Translations under genes and position numbers: made by a program
Notes under the pieces: generated by a model
The model's input: only the letters and a program-made list of their open reading frames with translations
Told to the model about the DNA's origin: nothing
The model's database searches: none
Virus record (IMG/VR): IMGVR_UViG_3300042876_000637
Span: 1-45,023 of that record
Length of the DNA stretch: 45,023 nucleotides
Reading direction: 5' to 3' (one strand)
Source: a virus
In this document: piece by piece, positions 4,847 through 45,023 of the stretch
How the letters are laid out: each line of letters begins with the position of its first letter
Position numbering within the stretch: position 1 is the first letter of the stretch

Positions 4847-4880
4847 AAAGCCCGGCTCTCAAATGAGAGCCGGGCTTTTT
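4847..4880 (+). terminator. Strong intrinsic terminator ahead of the late genes
   Basis: AAAGCCCGGCTCTC (4847-4860), loop AAAT and GAGAGCCGGGCTTT (4865-4878) form a 14-bp perfect stem followed by T residues. It lies between the small gene 4641-4808 and the late operon starting at 4899. I see no separate promoter after it, so late transcription may depend on readthrough or antitermination. Confidence 0.85.
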
Positions 4881-17651: not shown

Positions 17652-18203
17652 ATGACCATCTGCGTGGCCGCCCAAAGCCTCGCACCATCGGCGGCGGTGA
17701 TGGCAGGGGTAACACCGCTGACATCGCCGCCGCTCGTTTTGAGCACGTTTGACCCGGCCATTTTGGCGGGCCACGATTTGGTGTTTTTCAAACTCCACGG
17801 GATGTCCGGCCAGCCCTATTGGTACGGGGATAGCGGCATCACGGCCTGCTCGGCAGAGCAGATTGGCCAGGCCAATCTCGCGGGCGCGCTGGTGTTCGTG
17901 GCGAACTGTTGGGGCGGTGAGGATGCTCCGATGGTGCAGGCGCTACGCACGGCGGGCGCGCTGGCGGTGGTCACGGGCACCGGCGTCAATTTTGCTGGGC
18001 AACGCTGGCCGGCCGGCGCGGATGTGCTGGGGCGCGTATGGCGGGTGGCCCTGAGCCTCGGGGCCACTGCCGAAATGGCGCTGGCGCTGGGTCGGGCCGC
18101 CGCGAAAATTCACAGCCCGCAGCTGCGCGTTGACCTGGATTCATTTGCGGTGATTGGCGAGCGCAAAGCGCGGCTGAACGGCAAGGCTACAAAGCGCGGC
18201 TGA
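17652..18203 (+). CDS. CHAT/caspase-fold (clan CD) peptidase-like protein
   Basis: A 183-residue protein starting 2 bases after the fibre gene. DLVFFKLHGMSG (His49-Gly) and later GALVFVANCWGG (Cys86) give the strand-His-Gly and strand-Cys order of clan CD peptidases such as CHAT and gingipain families. Between them is SAEQIGQANL, and after the Cys comes MVQALRTAGALAVVTGTG, both typical of CHAT folds. The last 8 residues were changed by a 26-bp tandem duplication. A caspase-like protein in a phage structural operon is unexpected. It could process virion or host proteins, or be an inactive mimic. Confidence 0.65.
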   Translation: MTICVAAQSLAPSAAVMAGVTPLTSPPLVLSTFDPAILAGHDLVFFKLHGMSGQPYWYGDSGITACSAEQIGQANLAGALVFVANCWGGEDAPMVQALRTAGALAVVTGTGVNFAGQRWPAGADVLGRVWRVALSLGATAEMALALGRAAAKIHSPQLRVDLDSFAVIGERKARLNGKATKRG

Positions 18204-18230
18204 ACGGCAAGGCTACAAAGCGCGGCTGAA
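18165..18230 (+). repeat. 26-bp tandem duplication at the 3' end of the CHAT-like gene
   Basis: A 26-bp unit starting AAAGCGCGGCTG occurs at 18165-18190 and 18191-18216, then its first 14 bases again at 18217-18230. Because 26 is not a multiple of three, the second unit shifts the frame and creates the present stop at 18201-18203. Without the repeat the reading frame would end in RKARLKADHMR. Confidence 0.9.
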
Positions 18231-18240
18231 AGCCGATCAC
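18221..18240 (+). repeat. Short palindromic motif, copy 1
   Basis: CGCGGCTGAAAGCCGATCAC contains CGGCT, a 3-base loop and AGCCG. A close copy (CGCGGCTGCAAGCCGCTCAC) is at 21219-21238. Both lie in short gaps between structural genes, just before a ribosome binding site. Confidence 0.6.
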
Positions 18241-18252
18241 ATGAGGTGAGAT

Positions 18253-28864: not shown

Positions 28865-28899
28865 GAAAGCGCCCCCGGCGAGTTGTCGGGGGCGCTTTC
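28865..28899. terminator. Bidirectional terminator between late and early operons
   Basis: GAAAGCGCCCCCG (28865-28877) and CGGGGGCGCTTTC (28887-28899) form a 13-bp perfect stem with a 9-base loop, with T-rich ends on both strands. It separates the convergent operons ending at 28768 and 28902. The 28769-28864 stretch holds no gene. Confidence 0.85.
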
Positions 28900-30554: not shown

Positions 30555-30582
30555 ATGATAGCCGACTTGTTGCCGCCGTCAA
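30555..30582 (-). promoter_or_regulatory. Promoter for the second XRE gene
   Basis: On the minus strand TTGACG (30582-30577), a 16-base spacer and TATCAT (30560-30555) form a good sigma-70 promoter. Transcription would start near 30548, about 16 bases before ATG 30532, with AAAGGA as ribosome binding site. The -35 box overlaps the stop codon of the integrase gene. Confidence 0.65.
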
Positions 30583-32102
30583 ACCGCGTATAATACGGGC
30601 TGCATTGTAGATGACAAAAGGCGGACCCTGAGGAGTTTGTTGCGCGTTGGTATCCGAATCTCGTCGGGTCCGCACGCGCTAACGATTAGCGCATGGAAAA
30701 TCGGTTGTGGCTGAATGGCTGCAACCTCGTTTTGAAAGAGAAAGGCTTTTGCGAGCACTGCTTGCATGAGCCTTTTTCTTTGCTCGTCGTCGGCCAGCGC
30801 GTATAGCTGGCCGAAATTGTTTAAGGTCTCCAGGGCGGCGGCGTAATCAGCGGCGGACGTATCAGGGGCCGGGGGCGGCGCGACGGTTGCCAGGGCTTGC
30901 TCAATTTTCTTCTTTTCGGACAAATACTCGGCGTCGGTGAGATCGCCTGCCAGATATAGATTTTTAAGGCGGCGCTGGCGCTCGAGCAGGTCGGCTTGTG
31001 CGGCGGGGGGCTGGTCGGCAACGGCTGTCTGGAGTTTTACCATGCGCTCGATTTCGCTACGCCAGTCGGCAGGGATACGAATGCCGCTCAGAATTTCTAA
31101 CACTTGGGATTCGACGTGTTCGGCACTGACCGTGGTAGTCTGCGAACACGCGATTCCCAGTTGCTTTGCCGGTTGATAGTAGCGCCGGCCGTAAATCTGG
31201 TGATTGGTGCCCCGGTAGCGCAATTCGCACTCGCGGCAATGCAGCACCCCACTGAGGGGGTAAATGCGCGTCGCGTGATTGCTGGAGTCAGCCTTGGAGC
31301 GACGGCCCGCGCGCACTGCTTGGCATTTGTCAAACGTGGCTTGGTCGGTCAGGGGGGAATGCTCGCCGGGAAACCATTCGCCCTTATAGGCCACCAGGCC
31401 AAGATAATACTTGTCCTGGAGCATGTACCGCACCGTGTCTTTGCTGAACAGTCGCCGCCCCCGCTTATTGAGCGTGCGGTAGCCGCGTTGATTGAGCAGC
31501 GCGGCAATTTCCAGGTCAGAGTATTTCCCCGTCGCGTATTCGGTGAAGGCCAGCGTGGCCCCGATTCCGTCATAGGGGTCTGGGCTATCGCGCTTGGTCA
31601 GCGGGTCGCGGCAATAGCCGAAGTGCAGGTCGCCATTGCTGCGGCCTCGCACCACGCGCCCCTTCTTCCCCCGCTGGTATTTCTCGCTCAGGTCTTTGGA
31701 ATAGTAGGCCGCGAAGTCAGCCTGAATGCGGCGCGTCAGCCACCCGCTGGCGGTTTCCTCGTCCAGGTGCTGGGTGAGGGAAACTAGCCGCACGCGATGC
31801 TGGCGCAGAAATTTGTAATGGCGCTCACTATCGTCTTCGCGGGAGAAGCGGTCAATGTTCCAGACAATCAAAATGTCGAGGCGGTGGGCCTCGACATCGG
31901 CCAGCATGGCGCGGAATTTCGGGCGCTGGTCGGTGCCGCCCCGCTGGGCTTCCTCGCGGTAAATCTCGACAATCTGCCAGCCCTCCTGTGCGGCCCGTTC
32001 CCGCCCAAGGCGCTCTTGGTCGCCGAGGCTGTAATTGTCGAGTTGGCGTTTGTCGGAAACGCGCAGGTAGATTCCGGCGCGCAGTGGGGGTTTGGTTAGC
32101 AT
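30579..32102 (-). CDS. Large serine recombinase (phage integrase)
   Basis: A 507-residue protein with AAAAGGAG before ATG 32102. The catalytic domain begins YLRVSDKRQLDNYSLGDQ, with Ser16 as nucleophile, and includes DILIVWNIDRFSR. The recombinase domain follows (GYCRDPLTKRDSPDPYDGIG, DTVRYMLQDKYYLGLVAYKG). Then come a zinc ribbon (LHCRECELRYRG) and a coiled coil (about 375-440). Domain order and length match LSR integrases such as those of phiC31 and Bxb1. The Gp3-like protein at 41705 is the matching directionality factor. The attP site was not found. Confidence 0.93.
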   Translation of the reverse strand: MLTKPPLRAGIYLRVSDKRQLDNYSLGDQERLGRERAAQEGWQIVEIYREEAQRGGTDQRPKFRAMLADVEAHRLDILIVWNIDRFSREDDSERHYKFLRQHRVRLVSLTQHLDEETASGWLTRRIQADFAAYYSKDLSEKYQRGKKGRVVRGRSNGDLHFGYCRDPLTKRDSPDPYDGIGATLAFTEYATGKYSDLEIAALLNQRGYRTLNKRGRRLFSKDTVRYMLQDKYYLGLVAYKGEWFPGEHSPLTDQATFDKCQAVRAGRRSKADSSNHATRIYPLSGVLHCRECELRYRGTNHQIYGRRYYQPAKQLGIACSQTTTVSAEHVESQVLEILSGIRIPADWRSEIERMVKLQTAVADQPPAAQADLLERQRRLKNLYLAGDLTDAEYLSEKKKIEQALATVAPPPAPDTSAADYAAALETLNNFGQLYALADDEQRKRLMQAVLAKAFLFQNEVAAIQPQPIFHALIVSACGPDEIRIPTRNKLLRVRLLSSTMQPVLYAV

Positions 32103-35249: not shown

Positions 35250-36449
35250 TCAATGCTCCAGCGCGATACCGAGTAAATTCTGAACAGCACCAGACCGGTG
35301 CGTTTGCGGGATGAGCACCGTTGCGTCCGGGTCAGCATCGCTCCAGCGGTTGGGATAAGTGCGGGCGGCGATGAGTTCGCGGATGCGCGCCTCTTCTTCG
35401 TCGTTGATGAGGTCAATGAGCGGGCGGCCCAGTTCGTCGGCAGCCACGTTGATTTGCTCCTGCACATCCAGCACCTTTTGCAATGCCCATTCGCGGGCTT
35501 CGAGCGTGAGCGGGCCTTTACGGCTTGGGTTGCTGGACAGTTCCCCGCCTTTGTTGCGTTCGCCGTTCTTCTGCTTGCGGAGACGAAAAGAGCGCAGTTC
35601 GGAGTAGAGTGGGCGCAGGCGCTTGAGCGGTTGCAGGTAGGCCCAATCCGGTTGGCTGAGCACGTTATCAAGGGCGGCGTCTTTGGTTGCGAGGGGGCAA
35701 CCGATGCAGCCGGTGCGCGCATTGATTTCCTCGGCTTCCTCACCGCCGTAGACCTGTGCCACAAATGAGACCGATGGGGCAATGGTGGGCGCGTCAAATG
35801 TCAGCCAGTCCCAGACATGGCAAACACGCCAGTGGAGAATGGGGGCCAGCGTATCGGCCACGGATTCGGGGGTTGATTCCTGAAACCAGCCTTGCCCACA
35901 CTCCGCGCCGTTGCGCCCACACGAAAGCGCAATGCGGGCGTCACGGGCGGCGCTTTCGCCCACCCGAACGCCGGTGAGCATGAGGAACTTTTCGCCGTGG
36001 GCGTCACGGAGGCCCTTGAGCGCGGCCAACATCGGCTCAACTTTGATTTGAGCGGTACACCAGCGGAGCGTGTTGTTGTTAGGCGGCGGCACACCCCGCC
36101 CGAGCATGTAAACGAAGTAGCGGTCATCGAGCGGCGGCAGCACCACGCGGGCGGTGTGGCCCAGAGCGCGCACCGATTCGAGCGTTTGCATCGCCCCGAT
36201 GTGCAGAGGCGGGATTTCCTGGCGCGTGTCGCTGTAGAGCACGGTTAGCGACTGCGGGGCAGTGACGCGGCCAGTCTCGATGAGGTGGAGCACAACGGTG
36301 AGTAGCGCACTGCTGTCTTTGCCCCCGCTGTAGGCGATAGCCCAGTGCTGATAAAACGCGGCATAAGCGTTGAGCGACTGCGCCGTGAGTTCAATAGAGT
36401 CGGCCAATGTGAGACGTTTATCGTCGAAAAGGCTGGCTTGTTTACGCAT
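35250..36449 (-). CDS. PAPS reductase/DndC-like sulfur-transfer enzyme
   Basis: A 399-residue protein, ATG 36449 chosen because the upstream 260 bases belong to the primase gene. The PP-loop AIAYSGGKDSSALLTVVLHL (S41-S46) binds ATP. LRWCTAQIK, GVRVGESAARDARI and RTGCIGCPLATKD follow the DndC/PAPS-reductase order, with Cys residues placed for an Fe-S cluster. DndC works in DNA phosphorothioation with DndA, D and E, none of which is here. Many phages carry such solitary PAPS-reductase-like genes of unknown use. Confidence 0.82.
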   Translation of the reverse strand: MRKQASLFDDKRLTLADSIELTAQSLNAYAAFYQHWAIAYSGGKDSSALLTVVLHLIETGRVTAPQSLTVLYSDTRQEIPPLHIGAMQTLESVRALGHTARVVLPPLDDRYFVYMLGRGVPPPNNNTLRWCTAQIKVEPMLAALKGLRDAHGEKFLMLTGVRVGESAARDARIALSCGRNGAECGQGWFQESTPESVADTLAPILHWRVCHVWDWLTFDAPTIAPSVSFVAQVYGGEEAEEINARTGCIGCPLATKDAALDNVLSQPDWAYLQPLKRLRPLYSELRSFRLRKQKNGERNKGGELSSNPSRKGPLTLEAREWALQKVLDVQEQINVAADELGRPLIDLINDEEEARIRELIAARTYPNRWSDADPDATVLIPQTHRSGAVQNLLGIALEH

Positions 36450-37374
36450 GGAATAAACTCCCAATGTCGGCCTTTTCGGGCGCGGTGAGGGGCCATTCGT
36501 AGATGATGGCGGGAATGCCAGCGGCGCGCAGGCGGGTGGCGAGTTTGATGCCGCTGAGAAAAGCCGTCTCGTCATCTGGCAAATGGCGGGCGCGCCGGCG
36601 CGTCTTCCACGCGGCAATAATGGCGGGGTTGCGCGTCTGGCCAGGCACGTCGTTATCAAAGCCGATGATGACGGCGCTGGGCTGGGCGGCCTTGAGCGCG
36701 GCGGTGTAGCCATCGTTCCAGATGCTCACGCCGAAGGTGGCGACGGCAGCCATGTGCCAGTGGTCGCCGCACAGCAGGGCATCAATTGGGTTTTCCAGGA
36801 TGGCGACCGGCTGGGCGGGCTGCACGCTGGCAAGGTTGTAAAGCGCCAGTTTGCTGCCGCCGGGCGAAAGCCACTTCGGGCACTGGCACTCCACCGCGCG
36901 GCAGCGGAATCCAATCACATCCTCGCCATCAAAAATCGGCACAATCAGGCGCGGGTGGTCACAGCGCCCAGCCGCGTGATGCAGCCCGCCGGGAAACACG
37001 CCGTAGCCAAGTTTGTGTGCGCGGATGGTGGGCACCAGCAGCGGCTTGTAAGCCTGCCACTTTTGCGCGGCCAGCGGCGCGGCGGAAAACGAGATGGCGA
37101 GTTCACTGGCGCGGGCCTGCCACGGGCGCGGCTTGGGCGCGGGGGGCATGTAGGCTGGGGCCGAGGTGGGGCGCGTGTCGTGCATCCCCAGTTTTTCGGC
37201 GAGGGCGGATAGTGAGGGGGAGTATCCACAGAGGAAGCAATGCGCCCCGCGCGGGCCAAATGAGAAATGCGCTTTGGGCTTGCCGCATTGGGGGCAGGGG
37301 ATGTACACCTCGCCTTTGCGGTTCGGCGTCCGGTTGACGTAGGTGGTCAGGGCAGAGAAAAGTTCGGCGCTCAT
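36442..37374 (-). CDS. DNA primase with zinc ribbon and Toprim domain
   Basis: A 310-residue protein from ATG 37374 (ATGA overlap). Cys27, Cys30, Cys46 and Cys49 (YIPCPQCGK and HCFLCGYS) form the zinc ribbon. The Toprim domain has VAILENPIDALLCGD with the catalytic Glu and VIIGFDNDVPGQ with the DxD. It makes primers for phage replication together with the helicases upstream. Confidence 0.88.
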   Translation of the reverse strand: MSAELFSALTTYVNRTPNRKGEVYIPCPQCGKPKAHFSFGPRGAHCFLCGYSPSLSALAEKLGMHDTRPTSAPAYMPPAPKPRPWQARASELAISFSAAPLAAQKWQAYKPLLVPTIRAHKLGYGVFPGGLHHAAGRCDHPRLIVPIFDGEDVIGFRCRAVECQCPKWLSPGGSKLALYNLASVQPAQPVAILENPIDALLCGDHWHMAAVATFGVSIWNDGYTAALKAAQPSAVIIGFDNDVPGQTRNPAIIAAWKTRRRARHLPDDETAFLSGIKLATRLRAAGIPAIIYEWPLTAPEKADIGSLFHA

Positions 37375-39080
37375 GCTGTCACCTGCTGTCCGTGAAACAG
37401 CGCGCGAAGTTTGGTGTGTTCGGCGGCGTCCACCGACCGCGACACAATGGCGTGGGTGATGAGTTGCGCGGCCTGTCCACTGGTGCATCCGTCAGGCACC
37501 GGAACGCCCAGGCGGGCCAATAGAAGCCGTTGCTTGGTGGTGATGTCTTTGCGTCGCCAATCGCTCTTTTTATTGCCCAGCGTGCCGCCATCCAGCGCGA
37601 GGCAATCGGCGGCGGCTTTGGCTGCGTCCATCGTGGGATACAGGCCCACAAACCGGGCGCTGCCATTGACGCGGTAAAGGCGGAATTGGCTGAGCCAGTC
37701 GTAGGCGGCGCTGTGACCTGGCCCCCACTGCCCGCAGCGCTTCAGCCCCTCGGCCTTGCCCATGCGCTCTGCGTTCGGGAGCGCGATGCACAGTGACTCG
37801 GTGCCCAGCGCGGCAGTGGCGTAAAAGTCAGCCCCCACCGTCCAGGCCAGCGCGTCCTTCTTGAGCAGGTTAAGCACCTTGACAATGAGTTTGGCCGGGT
37901 CAATGGCACTGCTCTGGCCCATGCGGTCGATACTGAGCGCAAACAACACGCCTTGGCGCTGGGCCTGCTCTTCGGCTTTCTTCACCTCACGCGGCTTGCC
38001 CAGCACGTCGCCCGCCATCACCACGTTGCGGTCTTCCACGGGGGCGAAGTCGAGCACGCGGCAGTCGGCCTTGCCAGCGGCGAGGCGAAGGCCACGCCCC
38101 AGGCGCTGCACGTAAATCAGGTCGCTCTTGGTGGGGGCAATCATTAGCACGGCGCTGGTCTCGGGGGCGTCGAAGCCCTCGGTGAGCACCATGCAGTTGA
38201 AAACCACTTTCAGGTCGCCGCGCTGGTAGTATTTCAAGATGGCGTCGCGCTCCCGCTTGGGGGTCTCGCCGCTCACCCAATTGGCGGCCACGCCCTGGGC
38301 GGAGAAATACTCGGCGGTCTCGCGGGCCTGCGCCACGCTGGCGGTGAATCCGATGGTCTGGCGGTCTGAGCAAAACTCCTGCCACTTCTCAAACACGATA
38401 GCCAGCACGTTTTCGGCGCGCAGCAGATTGCCCAGGGATTCGGCCTCCCACCCGTTTTCGGTCTCGCGCAGCTCGGCAACTGACACCGGCAATGCCACGC
38501 CCAGCGCGTCAAACGGAGCCAATGAGCCGCGGGCGATGGCGGCGCTGATGGGCAACCGATACGAAACCCGCTGAAAAACCTTCGCCAAGCCGTCGCCATC
38601 CGTCCGCAGCGGGGTAGCCGTCACCCCTAAGACTTTTGCGCCGGGAAACGCGGCTACAAGCCGCTGGTACGTCTCGGCGGTGGCGTGGTGGCACTCGTCA
38701 ATGATGATGTGGCTGATGGGGCCGTGGGCGAGGATTTGCTCTACCCGGTTGCCCGCCACGAGCGTTTGGATGGTCGCCACGATGTGACGGGCGTGGACCT
38801 CGTTTTGGTCGGCCATGACCACGCCCATCTCGGCCCCAAGCGCAGGGAAGAATTCCAAGGCGCGCTGGATCGGTTGGTAAATCAGTTCACGCCGGTGGGC
38901 GATGATGAGCGCGCGGGTGAGTGTCCCGGCCCGGCGTTCGGCGTCGAGCAGGCCCAGGAACGTTTGCGTTTTGCCTGTGCCGGTGGCCATCACGACCAGC
39001 GTCCGGTCAACGCCTTTCCAGTCGCCGCGCACGGCAGCGATGGCTTCAATTTGGTAGTCGCGCAAAGCGAGTGTCGTCAT
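37371..39080 (-). CDS. SF2 DEAD/DEAH-type helicase
   Basis: A 569-residue protein. Motifs: Walker A ATGTGKT (32-38), Walker B IIDECHHA, motif III GVTATPLR, and motif VI VQRLGRGLR. The C-terminal 170 residues are an accessory domain. It resembles the phage and type III restriction-type helicases used for replication or recombination. No ribosome binding site precedes ATG 39080; instead the hairpin element ends 10 bases upstream, so expression may depend on it. Confidence 0.9.
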   Translation of the reverse strand: MTTLALRDYQIEAIAAVRGDWKGVDRTLVVMATGTGKTQTFLGLLDAERRAGTLTRALIIAHRRELIYQPIQRALEFFPALGAEMGVVMADQNEVHARHIVATIQTLVAGNRVEQILAHGPISHIIIDECHHATAETYQRLVAAFPGAKVLGVTATPLRTDGDGLAKVFQRVSYRLPISAAIARGSLAPFDALGVALPVSVAELRETENGWEAESLGNLLRAENVLAIVFEKWQEFCSDRQTIGFTASVAQARETAEYFSAQGVAANWVSGETPKRERDAILKYYQRGDLKVVFNCMVLTEGFDAPETSAVLMIAPTKSDLIYVQRLGRGLRLAAGKADCRVLDFAPVEDRNVVMAGDVLGKPREVKKAEEQAQRQGVLFALSIDRMGQSSAIDPAKLIVKVLNLLKKDALAWTVGADFYATAALGTESLCIALPNAERMGKAEGLKRCGQWGPGHSAAYDWLSQFRLYRVNGSARFVGLYPTMDAAKAAADCLALDGGTLGNKKSDWRRKDITTKQRLLLARLGVPVPDGCTSGQAAQLITHAIVSRSVDAAEHTKLRALFHGQQVTA

Positions 39081-39090
39081 AAGTGGAGGT

Positions 39091-39145
39091 GAATTTAGAG
39101 GGGTGCAGTTAAAGATATTAATTTAATCTGGACCCCTCTAAATTC
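39091..39145. repeat. 55-bp hairpin element, copy 1
   Basis: GAATTTAGAGGGGT (39091-39104) and ACCCCTCTAAATTC (39132-39145) form a 14-bp perfect stem around a 27-base A/T-rich loop (39105-39131). A second copy is at 44611-44667 in reverse orientation with the same loop. The element provides the last eight codons and stop of the helicase-like gene ending at 39118. Confidence 0.9.
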
Positions 39146-41220
39146 GCCGGAATGGGCTTGGGAAAGGCCGCGCGAGGTGGGCGGCCGCGGCCAGTGGGCT
39201 GCAACTGCCCCACCTGCCAAACTGCGGGCATGTGGGCCGCAATCAGGTCGAGCCAGCGGTTGCGCTTGGCGTGGTCTACCTCGACGTGGGCGGCCTGGGC
39301 CAGAGATTCGTAGGTGATGGGCGTCCCCGCTTCGTGTTGCTGGCGGAGCCACGGCTCGAGGGCCAGCCAGGTGCGCCAGTAGATGCCGGGCGGCCCAACG
39401 GGCGGGTCTTGCCAGATGCCGTCCACGACCTCGTCAGCCAGCGGCGTGCTCGTGATGAGCCAGCAGGTAGCCGGGTTGATGGTCAGGCGCGCGCGATGGA
39501 TGGCCTGGATGAGTTCGGCCTCGCGCAATTGCCGATGAATGGCGTCCAGCGTGGGGTGGCTATAGTGGCCGGTGCGGCGCGCGGCGGCCTGGGCCTCGGG
39601 GTGCATGAGTTGCAGGGTGGCCACGCCCGCCGGGCTGAGACGATATTCTCGGTCGCTGTAGCGGTAAAGCGGCTCACGGCGGTTGTCTGCGCCCACCTGC
39701 CAGAACGGTTCGAGGTCGCCGCTAAGGGCCACGGCCAGGTCAAGCATGGCGCTACCATTGGGGGTGTAGGTACCCACCACAAATAGATCATCCACGCCCT
39801 GGAGCCCGTTAGCCCCGCGCAGGCCGCCAAACGTCATCACGTTTTCCGCGCCAAAGACGCGGGCGAAGTGGGGCTGCAACGCTTTCCAGCACACCACGCC
39901 GGGGCGCTGCGATTGGCGGGCCAGGGCCTGCACGGTTTCCACCAGCAGTCGCCCTTCGTCGGTCAGGTTGCTGCGGTGGATAGCGGCGTTTTTGGCGTTG
40001 AGCCGCCCCACGATTTGGTGCAAGCGCCCTTGCCGCACCACACGCGGGGCGTGGACTTCGACCGGGCGGGCAAACAGCGATTGGTACAGGTCAGCCTGGG
40101 CGGTGGCATCCAGCACGATAAGTTTGGCGGGGATTTTTTCCCAAAGCGGGCTGCGCTCCAACAGGTGCAGCCCAGTGCTCGTCACCCAGATGCGCTCATT
40201 CCAGTTGGCCCACCCGCTCTCCCATGCCCTCTGCTCAGCCGTGGCGAGGCGGAGCATGTCGAACACGTACCAGTAGGGGGCCTTCACAACATCAGCCTCG
40301 CTGTAAATGCGCGGGGTCATAGGCAGCGCCGTGGCAACGTCTATTTGCGCCAGCGCGTCAGGGATGTGTTGCCCAATCTGGTTGAAAAGCGCCCGCCCGG
40401 CGACCCGCCCGCCCTTGGGGGCAAGGAAAGCGGCTTGCCGTAGCGCACTGATAAGCGCGTCCAGCGGGCCAATGGCCCCTACATCCAGGCCGTTCACGGG
40501 GATGATGCGCTCCTGCACGAAGGCGCTGAGTGGCAATTCATCCACGATTGCAAAATCAAATTTGCTAATGGCGAGGCCAGTGACGATGTGGTAGTGCTGC
40601 CCAAAAATGAGCGGCGTTTTGCAGCGTTCCTGCCCGCGATAGGGGCATTTCTGGATGTGGTTGTCGGCGTATTTGCCGCACAACTGCCAGCACAGTGCCA
40701 TCGCGTCGTAACCCTTTTGCGACCAGTGTTGCTGGGCCTCGGCATAGCGGCACACGGGCGCGTCGTTGAGTTTGCCCTGGATGCCCTGCCAGTGATACCA
40801 AAGCGATTTATCGAAGTGCTGGAATTGCGAGAGGTCGCCAAACATGTCGTGGCGACTGGCGGCCCAGAGGCCGCGCTTGCCCGCGCGGGCGTAGGCTTGA
40901 GCCACGTCCACCAGCGCGTGGGTCTTGCCAATGCCGGGGTCGCCGCGCACCAGCAACACGGAATCGGTGTCGCTGTCCAGATAATCCCGCCCCACGCGCG
41001 GCAATTCGGCGCGGGCGGTTTCGAGACTGACGGCGGCGGGCAGTGGCGGCAAGGACGACATGGCGAGGGGCTTCAGGCGAAAATCAGAGAATGGGGGCGG
41101 GTCGGGCGGCGGGTCCGGCGGCTGCCAGTCCTGCTCGCCGAGTTGCTCACGGGCCTGCCGCAGTTGCGCCTGGTGAAGGCGCAACTGGGCAAGGAGGACG
41201 TTTTCAATGATGTCTGGCAC
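39118..41220 (-). CDS. DinG/XPD-like helicase with Cys cluster
   Basis: A 700-residue protein, GTG start at 41220. Walker A is GDPGIGKTHA, Walker B FAIVDELPLS. Between them CWQLCGKYADNHIQKC and RGQERC place four Cys like the Fe-S cluster of XPD/DinG helicases. Helicase end motifs (IQAIHRARL) and a winged-helix-like C-terminus follow. The final residues LEGSRLN come from the hairpin element. It probably unwinds phage DNA during replication or recombination. Confidence 0.75.
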   Translation of the reverse strand: MPDIIENVLLAQLRLHQAQLRQAREQLGEQDWQPPDPPPDPPPFSDFRLKPLAMSSLPPLPAAVSLETARAELPRVGRDYLDSDTDSVLLVRGDPGIGKTHALVDVAQAYARAGKRGLWAASRHDMFGDLSQFQHFDKSLWYHWQGIQGKLNDAPVCRYAEAQQHWSQKGYDAMALCWQLCGKYADNHIQKCPYRGQERCKTPLIFGQHYHIVTGLAISKFDFAIVDELPLSAFVQERIIPVNGLDVGAIGPLDALISALRQAAFLAPKGGRVAGRALFNQIGQHIPDALAQIDVATALPMTPRIYSEADVVKAPYWYVFDMLRLATAEQRAWESGWANWNERIWVTSTGLHLLERSPLWEKIPAKLIVLDATAQADLYQSLFARPVEVHAPRVVRQGRLHQIVGRLNAKNAAIHRSNLTDEGRLLVETVQALARQSQRPGVVCWKALQPHFARVFGAENVMTFGGLRGANGLQGVDDLFVVGTYTPNGSAMLDLAVALSGDLEPFWQVGADNRREPLYRYSDREYRLSPAGVATLQLMHPEAQAAARRTGHYSHPTLDAIHRQLREAELIQAIHRARLTINPATCWLITSTPLADEVVDGIWQDPPVGPPGIYWRTWLALEPWLRQQHEAGTPITYESLAQAAHVEVDHAKRNRWLDLIAAHMPAVWQVGQLQPTGRGRPPRAAFPKPIPANLEGSRLN

Positions 41221-41234
41221 ATTGGGTTATGGGG

Positions 41235-41708
41235 TCAAAACGGGAGTTCGTCGTCGTCTGCGTAGGCGTCAATCTGCTCTGCGAGCAGCAGGTCAGCCGC
41301 ATGGTCGGCGAGCGCGCCAGTGTCGTCCCGTTCGGCGTCGGCGGATGGGTCGTCGTCGCGCCCCCCCAGGGCGGATGCCATGCGGTCGCGGATGAGCCAT
41401 TCGATGGCGCGGCGCTCGACGGACAGGGATTCGATGTCGGATTCGATGGCGCTCAGTTCGTCGGCGGTTTCAGACTGCATGTCGCGCAGCGCCTTGAGCG
41501 CCGGGTCGTCAGCCTCGGCGCGCTGGCGGGCTAGGCTCCGCATCTCCTCATTTTTGCCCGGCCAGCCGTCCGCTGGGGCCAAGGCCAGCACGCGGGCGGC
41601 ATAGTCGCTCTGCTGATGCGAGAGTTCGATTTGGTGGTCACGGCGGGCGCGGATGAGCGTGCCCAGCGTGGCGGCAATTTCGATTAGGCGGGTAGATGAG
41701 GCGTTCAT
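41235..41708 (-). CDS. Coiled-coil protein with SSB-like acidic C-terminal tip
   Basis: A 157-residue helical protein (QSETADELSAIESDIESLSV). It ends in YADDDELPF, which closely matches the C-terminal tip of bacterial SSB (DDDIPF) that docks many repair and replication proteins. There is no OB fold, so it is not an SSB. It may recruit the host proteins that normally bind SSB. It overlaps the stop of the RDF gene (ATGA). Confidence 0.65.
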   Translation of the reverse strand: MNASSTRLIEIAATLGTLIRARRDHQIELSHQQSDYAARVLALAPADGWPGKNEEMRSLARQRAEADDPALKALRDMQSETADELSAIESDIESLSVERRAIEWLIRDRMASALGGRDDDPSADAERDDTGALADHAADLLLAEQIDAYADDDELPF

Positions 41709-42886
41709 GCGGCCTCCAGCGTGACGGCGGCGGCTTCGTCTTTGAGGTTGGCGAGCGTGTTCACAGCGGCCTCGATGGTGTCGTCGTTGTCAGGCCAGCC
41801 GAAGTCGGCGGGGAGAATTTCTTTGGCGCGGGTGACAAGCGCGGCGTGCAGGGCGCGCCCAGCGGCGATGTACTGCTCTGACGCGGCCCCTTGCGGGATA
41901 GCATCGGCCTTGATGCCGAGCGCGATTTTCCATTGCCAGAGCGTGTTCCAACGCTCTTTGAGTTTTTCGAGTGACGCGAGTTTTTTGCCGTTCCCGTTCC
42001 CGTTGGATGCCGTGGGCTGCGTTTGCGCGGCGGCCTTATGCGAGTTGGAGAGCGGCTTGGCGGGCTCGCGGATAGAATCCGCTCTTACTGGCTGCGCGGG
42101 TTGCGCGGATTGGCGCGGGGCCGGCAGCGCGGGCATGGGGGCGGGTTCGGCCAGCACGTACTCACCGGTAGTGGCGTCAACCACTTCAGGCGCGGGCAGG
42201 TCGAGGGCGGCGGCGCGGGCCAGGGCAATCTCGCGGCGCATAAAGGCGGCGTCTGGCTCGATTTTGACCAGCCATTTGTCGGTGCGCTGGCGCTGGCCCT
42301 GGCGGTCGCCCCACCCCGGCACGCTGATTTTTTCCTGCTGGCGATAGAGGCGGAAGGCCACACCGCTCAGCCGGGCGTGCTTGCGCTCCAGACCGGCCAG
42401 GACGCCCGCGATAAACACGATGTCGTTGATGGAGTGGGTCTCCATCACCACGGTGCCCACATACCCCGCCTGTAACAACTGCGGCACCACAAATTCCAAG
42501 CGCCCCACCGCGTCGCGGCGCGGGTCGCCTTTTTCGTGCCCGCCGGTGCAAGGGCGCTGACCCTTGACCATCTTGTCCCCATCGCGCCAGATGGTCATCA
42601 TCTCGCCGTCGCAGCGGTGCTCCAGGCCAGACGAGCTCCACAGTTCCACCCAGGTGGTGAAGTTTTCGGCGGCGGTTTCGTAAGGCAGGTAGATGGTCAG
42701 TTCGCGGGGGGGCTTGGGGAAAGCGGCGTTCCACGCGGCCAGCGCTTCGGGGTTGTCGCTGGTGAAACGGAAGTGGTCGAGGTCGGGGCCGTAGCCCTTG
42801 CTGGTCTTTTCGCCGCCCTTGCGTAGCTTGCCGAGGCGCGGCAAGCGGGGAAGCAAGCTTTCGGGGTCAGTCAGGTTCTTAATCAT
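41705..42886 (-). CDS. Gp3-like recombination directionality factor
   Basis: A 393-residue protein with AGGAG before ATG 42886. LDHFRFTSDNPEALAAWNAA, GLEHRCDGEMMTIWRDGD, GRLEFVVPQLLQAGYVG and METHSINDIVFIAGVLAG follow the order of the phiC31 gp3 family. Gp3 binds the serine integrase and switches it to excision. The middle (about 255-310) is a Pro/Ala/Gln linker. Expression in the early operon fits a role at prophage induction. Confidence 0.82.
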   Translation of the reverse strand: MIKNLTDPESLLPRLPRLGKLRKGGEKTSKGYGPDLDHFRFTSDNPEALAAWNAAFPKPPRELTIYLPYETAAENFTTWVELWSSSGLEHRCDGEMMTIWRDGDKMVKGQRPCTGGHEKGDPRRDAVGRLEFVVPQLLQAGYVGTVVMETHSINDIVFIAGVLAGLERKHARLSGVAFRLYRQQEKISVPGWGDRQGQRQRTDKWLVKIEPDAAFMRREIALARAAALDLPAPEVVDATTGEYVLAEPAPMPALPAPRQSAQPAQPVRADSIREPAKPLSNSHKAAAQTQPTASNGNGNGKKLASLEKLKERWNTLWQWKIALGIKADAIPQGAASEQYIAAGRALHAALVTRAKEILPADFGWPDNDDTIEAAVNTLANLKDEAAAVTLEAA

Positions 42887-42895
42887 GTGCGGCTC

Positions 42896-43147
42896 CTAAT
42901 TGGCGGGTGCGCTTTCCACGGGCTTGCCCATGAAAAACTCGCGGGTTTGGGCGTTCACTTTGCTGAGCAGCGGCATGGCCTGCTCTTTGACGGCAGATTT
43001 GGCTTTGGCAAACAGGGCGTTGGTGGCGGCGGCGGGGTCTTCGCCGTCTTCCACATCGGCCCACACGGTGACGCCAATGGCGGCGCTATTGAAATCGCCG
43101 AGGTTGAGTTTGCGCTCGTAGGTGACGGAGATGGTCTTGATGTTCAT
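42896..43147 (-). CDS. Small phage protein, conserved type
   Basis: An 83-residue protein. NIKTISVTYERKLNLGDFNS and AIGVTVWADVEDGEDPAAAT match a small protein type seen beside recombination genes in phages and mobile elements. Function is unknown. It lies upstream of the directionality factor. Confidence 0.68.
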   Translation of the reverse strand: MNIKTISVTYERKLNLGDFNSAAIGVTVWADVEDGEDPAAATNALFAKAKSAVKEQAMPLLSKVNAQTREFFMGKPVESAPAN

Positions 43148-43386
43148 AGGGGCACCGCAAACGACGAAACCTTGCGCTCCAGCATCTTGACCAGCAGCCG
43201 GTCAAACGTGCCGCCGGGAAGTTTTGAAAGCACTTGGTCGAAGATAGCGTCAGCATCGGCATCAAATGTGTCGTTGGAAAATCCGACTGTTTTGAATTCT
43301 GGAATAGGGACGCTGAGCACAAGCGTGACCGATTCGATTTGGCCGCCCCCAATGGCTTGGGCCTTATAGGCCTCGATGGTCTTCAT
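43144..43386 (-). CDS. Small early protein
   Basis: An 80-residue protein from ATG 43386, coupled to both neighbours. It has alpha/beta character (IESVTLVLSVPIPEFKTVGF) with an acidic centre. No family recognised. Confidence 0.6.
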   Translation of the reverse strand: MKTIEAYKAQAIGGGQIESVTLVLSVPIPEFKTVGFSNDTFDADADAIFDQVLSKLPGGTFDRLLVKMLERKVSSFAVPL

Positions 43387-43547
43387 TTGCGCCACCACAG
43401 CGCTACAACCGTGCCAATCACGGCGACAGCGGCGCAGAAAACGGTCAGCGGGCGCGGGAGCGTGCAGAGCAGAAAGGCTGGGATTTCGCGCACGGGCAAC
43501 GCGCCGGTGCGGATGTCGGTGGCAATGTGGAGAATTTCGGTCAGCAT
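43383..43547 (-). CDS. Small membrane protein
   Basis: A 54-residue protein with AGGAG before ATG 43547 and a stop overlapping the next gene (ATGA). Residues 32-51 form one transmembrane helix (LTVFCAAVAVIGTVVALWW). The N-terminal half is amphipathic. No family recognised. Confidence 0.6.
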   Translation of the reverse strand: MLTEILHIATDIRTGALPVREIPAFLLCTLPRPLTVFCAAVAVIGTVVALWWRK

Positions 43548-43555
43548 GGCGGCTC

Positions 43556-43669
43556 CTAAAATCCGCTGAGGCAGCGGAATTGGGCGACTACGTTTCCCCA
43601 GGTGCGGGGGCCATAGTCCTGGCGGATGAGTTGGCCGAGCAGGTCGGCGAGTTCAAGCAGGGTGGTCAT
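43556..43669 (-). CDS. Very small early protein
   Basis: A 37-residue protein from ATG 43669 inside the end of the upstream gene, ending 8 bases before the next start. MTTLLELADLLGQLIRQDYG is an amphipathic helix. Packed spacing supports translation; size makes it uncertain. Confidence 0.5.
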   Translation of the reverse strand: MTTLLELADLLGQLIRQDYGPRTWGNVVAQFRCLSGF

Positions 43670-43940
43670 TGGCGGTGTCCTCAAAGTGGCGTTGCAGGTC
43701 GGTCAGAATTCCGTCGAGGGCCGCGAGGTTGGCGCGGGTGCCCTCGATTTCTGTCATGGCGCTTGTCAGACGGGTGATGGCAGCGCGGTCGGCGGTGGTT
43801 TCCAGCGTGTTGCGTAATTTGGCGTCCATCACTCGGAGGCGAAACGCGCAATCGCTCAGGCGGGCCTTGCCGTCTAAAACGGCATTTAGGACTTCGGCGA
43901 GTTGCTGCGGGGGCCGCGTGCGGCGCGCGCAGGTGGACAT
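43653..43940 (-). CDS. Small helical early protein
   Basis: A 95-residue protein, start ATG 43940, almost all helical (TRLTSAMTEIEGTRANLAAL). Overlaps the next small gene by 17 bases. No family recognised. Confidence 0.55.
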   Translation of the reverse strand: MSTCARRTRPPQQLAEVLNAVLDGKARLSDCAFRLRVMDAKLRNTLETTADRAAITRLTSAMTEIEGTRANLAALDGILTDLQRHFEDTANDHPA

Positions 43941-43944
43941 CCGG

Positions 43945-44265
43945 TCACTCTGGCTGTTCGTCGCGCCGTAAACTCAGGCGCTCGAACAGCCGGTCAAGCC
44001 AGTGGTAAGAGAAGACGCTGCCGCCGCCAAGCCCCAGCACCGCGCTCATGGCCCACATGGCATCGGCGGCGGTCATCTGCCCCCATACCAAAAACAGCGC
44101 GGCCAGCGGGAGGTACAGCGCCAGCACGCCCATCACGTAGCGGGCGGTGAGTGGCATGTCGCGCCGCAGCGCCGCCTTGAAGTAGGGCAGCCCAGCGTAG
44201 TGCTGGAGGCCCAGCAGGGCGGCGGCGGCGAGGCCAGTGGCAATGATGAGAGCGGGGTCGCGCAT
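43945..44265 (-). CDS. Three-pass membrane protein
   Basis: A 106-residue protein from ATG 44265. Hydrophobic segments at about 5-20, 43-63 and 70-88, with a basic C-terminus (DRLFERLSLRRDEQ). Holin-like size but in the early operon; a membrane role in early takeover or exclusion is equally possible. Confidence 0.6.
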   Translation of the reverse strand: MRDPALIIATGLAAAALLGLQHYAGLPYFKAALRRDMPLTARYVMGVLALYLPLAALFLVWGQMTAADAMWAMSAVLGLGGGSVFSYHWLDRLFERLSLRRDEQPE

Positions 44266-44302
44266 GTGACTATCTCCTCAGACGGGGAAGGTTGGTGTAG
44301 GC

Positions 44303-44572
44303 TTATTTCCAATCGGCGTAGACCCACTCGCCAGTGGTGGCCCCCAGCGGCGCAATGCACGCCAGCGGGGTCGTCCCATCAAACCGCGAGGCGAGCACGG
44401 CGTAGGTGACGCCCGGCTCTTCGTCGAAAATGACGGTGTCGCCAGGGAGAGGTAACGTCGCCGCTTGCGCGAGGATGGCGGCGGTGTTGGCAACGTGCTG
44501 CCCATTGGCGGTGTAGCAGTCCGGGCAGTGCGCCCCGGTATAGGGTTTTTGGCAGGTGCGGCAGGTTTTCAT
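44303..44572 (-). CDS. Zinc-ribbon protein
   Basis: An 89-residue protein with GGAG before ATG 44572. CRTCQKPYTGAHCPDC at the start is a zinc ribbon. The rest is beta-rich (GDTVIFDEEPGVTYAVLASR). Second gene of the early operon. Confidence 0.65.
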   Translation of the reverse strand: MKTCRTCQKPYTGAHCPDCYTANGQHVANTAAILAQAATLPLPGDTVIFDEEPGVTYAVLASRFDGTTPLACIAPLGATTGEWVYADWK

Positions 44573-44610
44573 GGTGTGCTCCGTTGGCGGCGGGGGGAGG
44601 TGGGTCTGGC

Positions 44611-44667
44611 GGAATAAAGAGGGGTCCAGATTAAATTAATATCTTTAACTGCACCCCTCTTTATTCC
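44611..44667. repeat. 55-bp hairpin element, copy 2 (inverted)
   Basis: GGAATAAAGAGGGGT (44611-44625) and ACCCCTCTTTATTCC (44653-44667) form a 15-bp stem. The 27-base loop (44626-44652) is the exact reverse complement of the loop in copy 1. In each arm two bases differ from copy 1 (TT to AA, AA to TT) so that pairing is kept. The change supplies the TAA stop of the ribbon-helix-helix gene. Confidence 0.9.
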
Positions 44668-44852
44668 CCGGAAGGCGGGTAGGCCGCAAGCGCGGCGGCG
44701 GCGGTGGGCGGGAGGCTGGACTTGATGCTGCTGAGTTTTTCGCGAACGGCTAATCGAACCAATTTGCTTTGGTCAGTATCAAGGCGCTTCACGGCTTCAT
44801 CAATTTCTGAAACCATTTCATCTGGCGCAATAAATGTGATTACTTTTGGCAT
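44661..44852 (-). CDS. Ribbon-helix-helix DNA-binding protein
   Basis: A 63-residue protein with AAGGAG before ATG 44852, first gene of the early operon. MPKVITFIAPDEMVSEIDEA, then KRLDTDQSKLVRLAVREKL, is a typical RHH (CopG/Arc) fold: a strand, helix, turn, helix. It sits directly downstream of the early promoter, so it may regulate that promoter in Cro-like fashion. Its stop codon comes from the hairpin element. Confidence 0.8.
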   Translation of the reverse strand: MPKVITFIAPDEMVSEIDEAVKRLDTDQSKLVRLAVREKLSSIKSSLPPTAAAALAAYPPSGE

Positions 44853-44861
44853 AGGTGGCTC

Positions 44862-45023
44862 CTTACGTCTAATGCGTTCAAAATCTAATTCTCTTCAAGT
44901 ATACTCTCGCGGCTATTATTTGTCAATATCGAATAATATATTTCGCCAATGAATTAACTTTGTGTGCGAATATGTTTCTAGTGACAACTTTTTCGACTTG
45001 GCTTCAAAGTGAATTAGATTCCA
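44862..45023. repeat. Terminal direct repeat (copy 2)
   Basis: This is the second copy of bases 1-162, with C at 44896 and T at 44954 instead of G. It contains the leftward promoter (TTGACA at 44926-44921, TATACT at 44903-44898), which directly drives the gene at 44852 in this record. Confidence 0.9.

Follow-up and report, generated by a model that had tools for sequence, protein, structure and literature searches.

Two inverted hairpins at gene 3' ends of a phage genome as possible copies of one short palindrome

Two hairpin elements, here called E1 and E2, have an identical 43-nt core and loop, hold that loop in opposite orientations, sit at the ends of genes, and are bounded by outer arms that are perfectly paired but different. 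From these observed features, E1 and E2 are tentatively explained as two copies of one short copyable palindrome: the pair works like such an element and may well have arisen like one. The sequence analysed, referred to below as the window, is a single IMG/VR virus record of 45,023 bp.

Results

Element E1 (39091-39145, minus strand) is a hairpin with a perfect 14-bp stem and a partly paired 27-nt loop, while element E2 (44611-44667, minus strand) combines a perfect 15-bp stem with the loop of E1 in inverted form. Read along the window, E1 consists of GAATTT-AGAGGGGT, the 27-nt loop and ACCCCTCT-AAATTC, and E2 of GGAATAA-AGAGGGGT, the reverse complement of the E1 loop and ACCCCTCT-TTATTCC. The core common to both is made up of the 8-bp inner stem and the 27-base loop, and the E1 core (AGAGGGGT-loop-ACCCCTCT, 39097-39139, plus strand, 43 nt) is the reverse complement of the E2 core (44618-44660, minus strand, 43 nt), the two lying in opposite orientation. 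In the six pairs outside the core, two adjacent bases in each arm differ between the elements, and pairing is intact in both. The E1 outer arm GAATTT (39091-39096, plus strand) pairs with AAATTC (39140-39145), and the E2 outer arm GGAATAA (44611-44617, plus strand) pairs with TTATTCC (44661-44667); relative to the GAATTT/AAATTC of E1, E2 therefore has GAATAA/TTATTC and one extra G-C pair, and UCUUUAUU results on both strands. The preliminary description had reported an identical loop in opposite orientation with 8 bp of inner stem, as well as outer stems that are two bases apart per arm yet fully paired, and both statements proved exact when the sequences were compared and both arms were read.

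No other inverted repeat of the window comes close in length to the E1/E2 pair (58 nt, 91% complementary, with 5466 nt between the arms). The 31-mer core occurs exactly twice in the window, with 0 matches in 100 shuffles, and chance resemblance between E1 and E2 is excluded. Perfect hairpins of at least 11 bp number eight in the window, E1 and E2 included, as against 0-1 in Markov controls. Upon RNA folding of either strand, E1 and E2 gave energies of -31.5 to -38.7 kcal/mol (z -6.7 to -8.9), and by this prediction both would form strong hairpins in the leftward mRNA. Since the 27-nt loop is itself partly paired, with CAG/CTG and TTAAA/TTTAA pairs lengthening the stem, each element is one long hairpin. 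An Rfam scan of the window gave no match.

In the outer arms next to the stem, E1 and E2 have the same base at 7 of 9 positions (GAATxxAGA). The flanks on the gene-end side show a weak similarity, in direct and not inverted orientation, which is marginal given that its P values (0.004 by local alignment, 0.024 when anchored) are uncorrected for four comparisons. No direct repeats flank either element, such that the target-site duplication of a classical DDE-transposase MITE is missing.

Both elements lie in a series of leftward genes that extends from the right end to about 35 kb, starting from a promoter-like site at 44926-44898. This site, a sigma-70-like TTGACA-17-TATACT (44898-44926, minus strand, 11/12), is about 230 nt upstream of E2. 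The first leftward ORF (44661-44852, minus strand) encodes a 63-aa ribbon-helix-helix (RHH) protein (PF01402, E 1e-4), and its TAA stop (44661-44663, minus strand) is within the outer stem of E2. Between E2 and E1 lies the gene of a Gp3-like recombination directionality factor (RDF; 41705-42886, minus strand; PF18897, 1e-21). A 700-aa ORF (39118-41220, minus strand) ends inside E1, which encodes its last residues, NLEGSRLN, and places its TAA stop (39118-39120, minus strand) within the loop; the earlier statement that the elements supply the stops of leftward genes thus holds for both. The 700-aa product contains a P-loop-like motif, GDPGIGKTH, and has no Pfam family and no relative in IMG/VR. 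Directly downstream of E1 is a DNA helicase gene (37371-39080, minus strand; PHROG 16, 1.8e-77), and the leftward cluster also includes a gene for a PAPS-reductase-like protein (35250-36713; PHROG 12882, 3e-158).

Predicted products in the window include a serine integrase, the RDF, a helicase, a primase, TerL and a portal protein. The ends of the window bear a 162-bp direct repeat (1-162 and 44862-45023, two mismatches) that includes the leftward promoter-like site and is either a true repeat or an assembly overlap; on account of this repeat, the genome is probably complete or circular. Elsewhere, at 18164-18241, a 26-nt unit, CAAAGCGCGGCTGAACGGCAAGGCTA, is repeated three times in tandem, two of the copies being identical.

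E2 comes right after the first gene, that of the 63-aa RHH protein, of the early leftward operon, and its U-tract score of 3.19 on each strand falls within the top 0.5% of window positions. The scores of E1, 1.72 and 1.83, lie at about the 5-6% level, near background. Two other strong hairpins with U-tracts in the window, at 4847-4878 (4.23/2.83) and, between convergent genes, at 28865-28899 (3.18/3.79), are probable terminators; the score of E2 is level with that of the latter and close to that of the former. Because the arm is palindromic, the TT/AA swap between E1 and E2 decides whether a U-tract is present, and does so for both directions simultaneously. Judged by sequence, E2 is probably an intrinsic terminator or attenuator after the first gene, while E1, in which the U-tract is missing, would be a poor terminator and might serve at most in protection or processing of RNA 3' ends. 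The earlier suggestion of a processing or termination signal is hence plausible for E2, with its high score on both strands, but not for E1.

These features raise the distinct possibility that recombination within the phage duplicated an ordinary intrinsic terminator or attenuator hairpin, no separate element being involved, and that the stem is kept by selection for RNA structure. As in intrinsic bidirectional terminators, the GC stem of E2 stands between A-rich and U-rich tracts, and its U-tracts are bidirectional, like those of the hairpins at 4847-4878 and 28865-28899. Hairpins also occur immediately ahead of the helicase gene in a distantly related phage (L125) and immediately behind the RDF gene in L303. 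The orientation of the loop would be irrelevant to a stem-only signal, and the agreement of the arms at 7 of 9 positions means that a unit of 55-57 nt may have been duplicated by plain recombination. However, E1 lacks a U-tract, both elements have a long 27-nt apical part with internal mismatches, and the loop, which would be unselected, is identical in E1 and E2 whereas the stem has changed. Moreover, both copies lie inside one operon, whose later genes would be shut off by a strong terminator behind the first gene unless antitermination occurred, and no antiterminator was recognised in the phage.

It is improbable that the elements are DNA sites for a protein, that is, an RHH repressor stoperator or a replication or partition site in the form of a dyad with an AT-rich centre. 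The centre TTAAAGATATTAATTTAA is indeed conspicuous in a genome of 61% GC, the RHH gene adjoins E2, and the helicase and primase genes lie beside E1; yet no third copy, half-site or similar dyad is found near the promoter or elsewhere in the window. The inversion site put forward in the preliminary description, where recombination between the copies would flip the 5.5-kb segment bracketed by identical 43-nt cores in inverted orientation, is highly improbable and was rejected, given that outer stems recombined by a crossover in the core would be mismatched hybrids (GAATTT facing TTATTC) whereas both observed stems are perfect, that the promoter lies outside the segment and a flip would separate about ten genes from it, that 43 nt is short for homologous recombination, and that among the ORFs scanned, a subset of those in the window, no cognate invertase was recognised, the sole recombinase being the large serine integrase (30579-32102) found by the annotation scan.

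The exact core and loop are absent from the 2.9 million viral contigs of IMG/VR, in which an 18-nt half of the loop is likewise unmatched, so the 27-base loop does not recur in other phages of that collection. Seven genomes and records also contained no match to the core, and when the element was compared by blastn with phage and plasmid records, only chance-level matches emerged. When the stem was generalised to a 12-nt pattern, viral sequences yielded one other match only (L003/L004): at L003:7425-7463, in another viral contig, a hairpin arm AGAGGGGTCCAGA is identical to one arm of E1/E2, and the loop is different. The generalised stem also found more than 120 loci from many phyla in bacterial genome contigs. 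These were rejected as relatives, as they are mostly unrelated hairpins that fit the imposed stem, or belong to repeat families of Devosia and Pseudidiomarina; in the Devosia genomes (L012, L014, L025 and other loci), a palindromic repeat, GGGTGAGGGGTTCAG...CTGAACCCCTCACCC, whose centre varies, is present many times.

Across 400 Chloroflexota genomes, the stem pattern showed a modest excess over the reversed control (33 genomes with matches), and no match resembled E1/E2; an E-like pattern gave one chance-like match in 148 Desulfobacterota genomes. Phage relatives identified by helicase, TerL and RDF are distant, and none has E1/E2 elements. The best matches of the phage TerL in the 400 Chloroflexota genomes reach only 37-39%.

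One of the generalised-stem loci, L088, has a RAYT-like gene flanked by hairpins, and for this reason E1 and E2 were compared with the ends of Y1 transposases. At this locus (L088:2343-3300, Pseudidiomarina), the RAYT-like transposase lies between GAGGGGTGCAG REP-like hairpins. On either side of RAYT/TIRYT-type Y1 transposases lie TIRs resembling GGGGACAGAT or GGGGTCAGACTTA; examples from the longer RAYT-like (TIRYT) genes of Desulfobacterota and Chloroflexota are the terminal inverted repeats AAAAGGGGACAGATTTATTTTT and CAGGGGTCAGACTTACTTATTGACAAT. The flanks of RAYT genes in Chloroflexota bear hairpins other than E1/E2. The Terminal Inverted Repeat associated tYrosine Transposases (TIRYT) are associated with the TIR motif GGGGWSAS (Di Nocera et al. 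2013, PMC3733652; PMC6006769).

E1 and E2 resemble TIRYT TIRs in being short palindromes that start with GGGG, in their CAG-type motif and AT-rich centre, in the head-to-head arrangement of their ends, in occurring, like solo repeats, downstream of genes and in both orientations, and in that no target duplication is seen. They differ in having GGGGT[CG]CAG, one base off GGGGWSAS, with AGA in front, in numbering only two copies, and in having no known cognate transposase. Their ends, GGGGTCCA and GGGGTGCA, depart from the consensus by the replacement of A with C at position 7, and no Y1 transposase (PF01797) was found in the phage; membership of the TIRYT family is therefore unproven. Neither do the ends match any of 27 TIR sets of Y1 transposases. 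Against these 27 TIRs, the end AGAGGGGTCCAGATTAAATTAA scored P 0.01-0.02 by full shuffle, which lost significance with AGAGGGG held fixed (P 0.12-0.22), and the other end has no resemblance to the TIRs at all.

REPs and REPINs mobilised by RAYTs (Bertels and Rainey 2011, PMC3116915) are similarly miniature palindromes that move in trans, often in matched palindromic flanks, and insertion of REP dimers inside palindromes has been reported for other families (PMC3733652). The Pseudidiomarina REPs beside the RAYT-like gene have the 11-nt stem of E1/E2, GAGGGGTGCAG, a likeness that is not independent evidence because the search had imposed that stem. At the foot of the E1 and E2 hairpins, GAATTT and GAATAA are found in place of a GTAG or CGTC tag. 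As the similarity of the ends is not significant, the arms are similar to each other and the TIRYT consensus is absent, E1 and E2 are not filed under any named family.

Other phages contain a palindrome family that has the same architecture as E1/E2 but is unrelated to them; this family is mobile there, and its copies are often enclosed by complementary arms specific to the locus. In this family, two TIR ends placed head to head form palindromes of 25-53 bp, which are multi-copy in some genomes (G427, G501), while a reversed-pattern control gave 0 in 99 genomes. The 25-bp form also occurs in viral contigs; the 25-bp palindrome GGGGACAG occurs at least 12 times in the 54-kb contig IMGVR_UViG_3300033489_000011 (L364, L365, L373). 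Comparison of related viral contigs revealed homologous sites near gene ends with and without the insert (L363 versus L368 and L374). Copies were scored as having matched arms if their outer arms were self-complementary over at least 6 bp, with re-paired flanks as the null. Such arms, of 6-9 bp and differing from copy to copy, were found in 6 of 45 distinct copies, compared with 0.1% under the null. The matched-arm GGGGACAGATTTNAAATCTGTCCCC palindromes are located in viral contigs and one genome (L365:2565, L379:7342, L367:3483, L373:2305, L377:3136 and L387:201), and by a mechanical ORF count many copies of GGGGACAGATTTNAAATCTGTCCCC palindromes lie near gene 3' ends.

The phages that bear GGGGACAG palindromes are not kin of the E1/E2 phage, and the sequences of the palindromes are unrelated to E1/E2. 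What is common to them is the outward pattern of one core with different but paired arms; the arms of the comparison palindromes are independent, however, whereas E1 and E2 have similar arms (7 of 9 positions). The MITE-like character proposed in the preliminary description accordingly has a good precedent for its architecture in other viral contigs and genomes, but E1 and E2 themselves are without a relative.

Discussion

If E1 and E2 are copies of one palindrome, the likeliest kind would be a two-ended miniature element of the REP/TIR sort, movable in trans by a cellular Y1 (HUH) transposase, which would have settled at the 3' ends of two genes in the early leftward operon. We infer both the movement of E1 and E2 by this route and the host transposase as its agent. 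The promoter and the RHH gene just upstream of E2 count in favour of this explanation, and the occurrence of only two copies, with no relative of the core in IMG/VR, counts against it.

The change in the outer arms from E1 to E2 is a single adjacent dinucleotide, TT/AA to AA/TT, mirrored in the opposite arm, and a single event, or two at most, can account for such a change. Template switching between short inverted-repeat arms is known from yeast, with arms of more than 9 bp, to homogenize arms and invert spacers (PMC8604942), and it is also documented as a source of compensatory stem changes spanning several bases (PMC8794818). The simplest account is that one dinucleotide change was copied to the opposite arm of the palindrome in this manner; a different palindromic target site would be an alternative source of matched arms. 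A single template-switch event can yield both the arm change and the inverted loop while leaving the 5.5-kb segment unflipped. E1 and E2 are comparable to quasipalindrome template-switch mutations (PMC8604942, PMC8794818) in that the arms change jointly and the loop is inverted between otherwise matching hairpins, but the two hairpins are paralogous and not allelic, and their 27-nt spacer is longer than in the yeast cases. The preliminary description had taken the paired differences as covariation and hence as preservation of structure, which is too strong a reading for one adjacent dinucleotide, since template switching gives the same pattern (PMC8794818, PMC8604942). As a caution, paired "compensatory" changes in hairpins may reflect one mutational event or another insertion site, and compensatory changes alone do not prove a selected RNA structure.

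A further proposal, which appears doubtful, is that E1 and E2 represent a hitherto undescribed family of mobile palindromes carried by phages; a Y1 transposase of the host would move them, and they would insert into, or build, perfect palindromes at gene 3' ends. Should this be so, the insertions would supply the phage with ready-made hairpins, which is also what the GGGGACAG mini-palindromes apparently do in other viral contigs. The comparison set, with its 45 copies, six of them in matched arms, and its occupied and unoccupied homologous sites, makes the interpretation of E1 and E2 as a mobile palindrome testable. If that interpretation is true, phages can gain terminators and mRNA-end hairpins as small mobile insertions.
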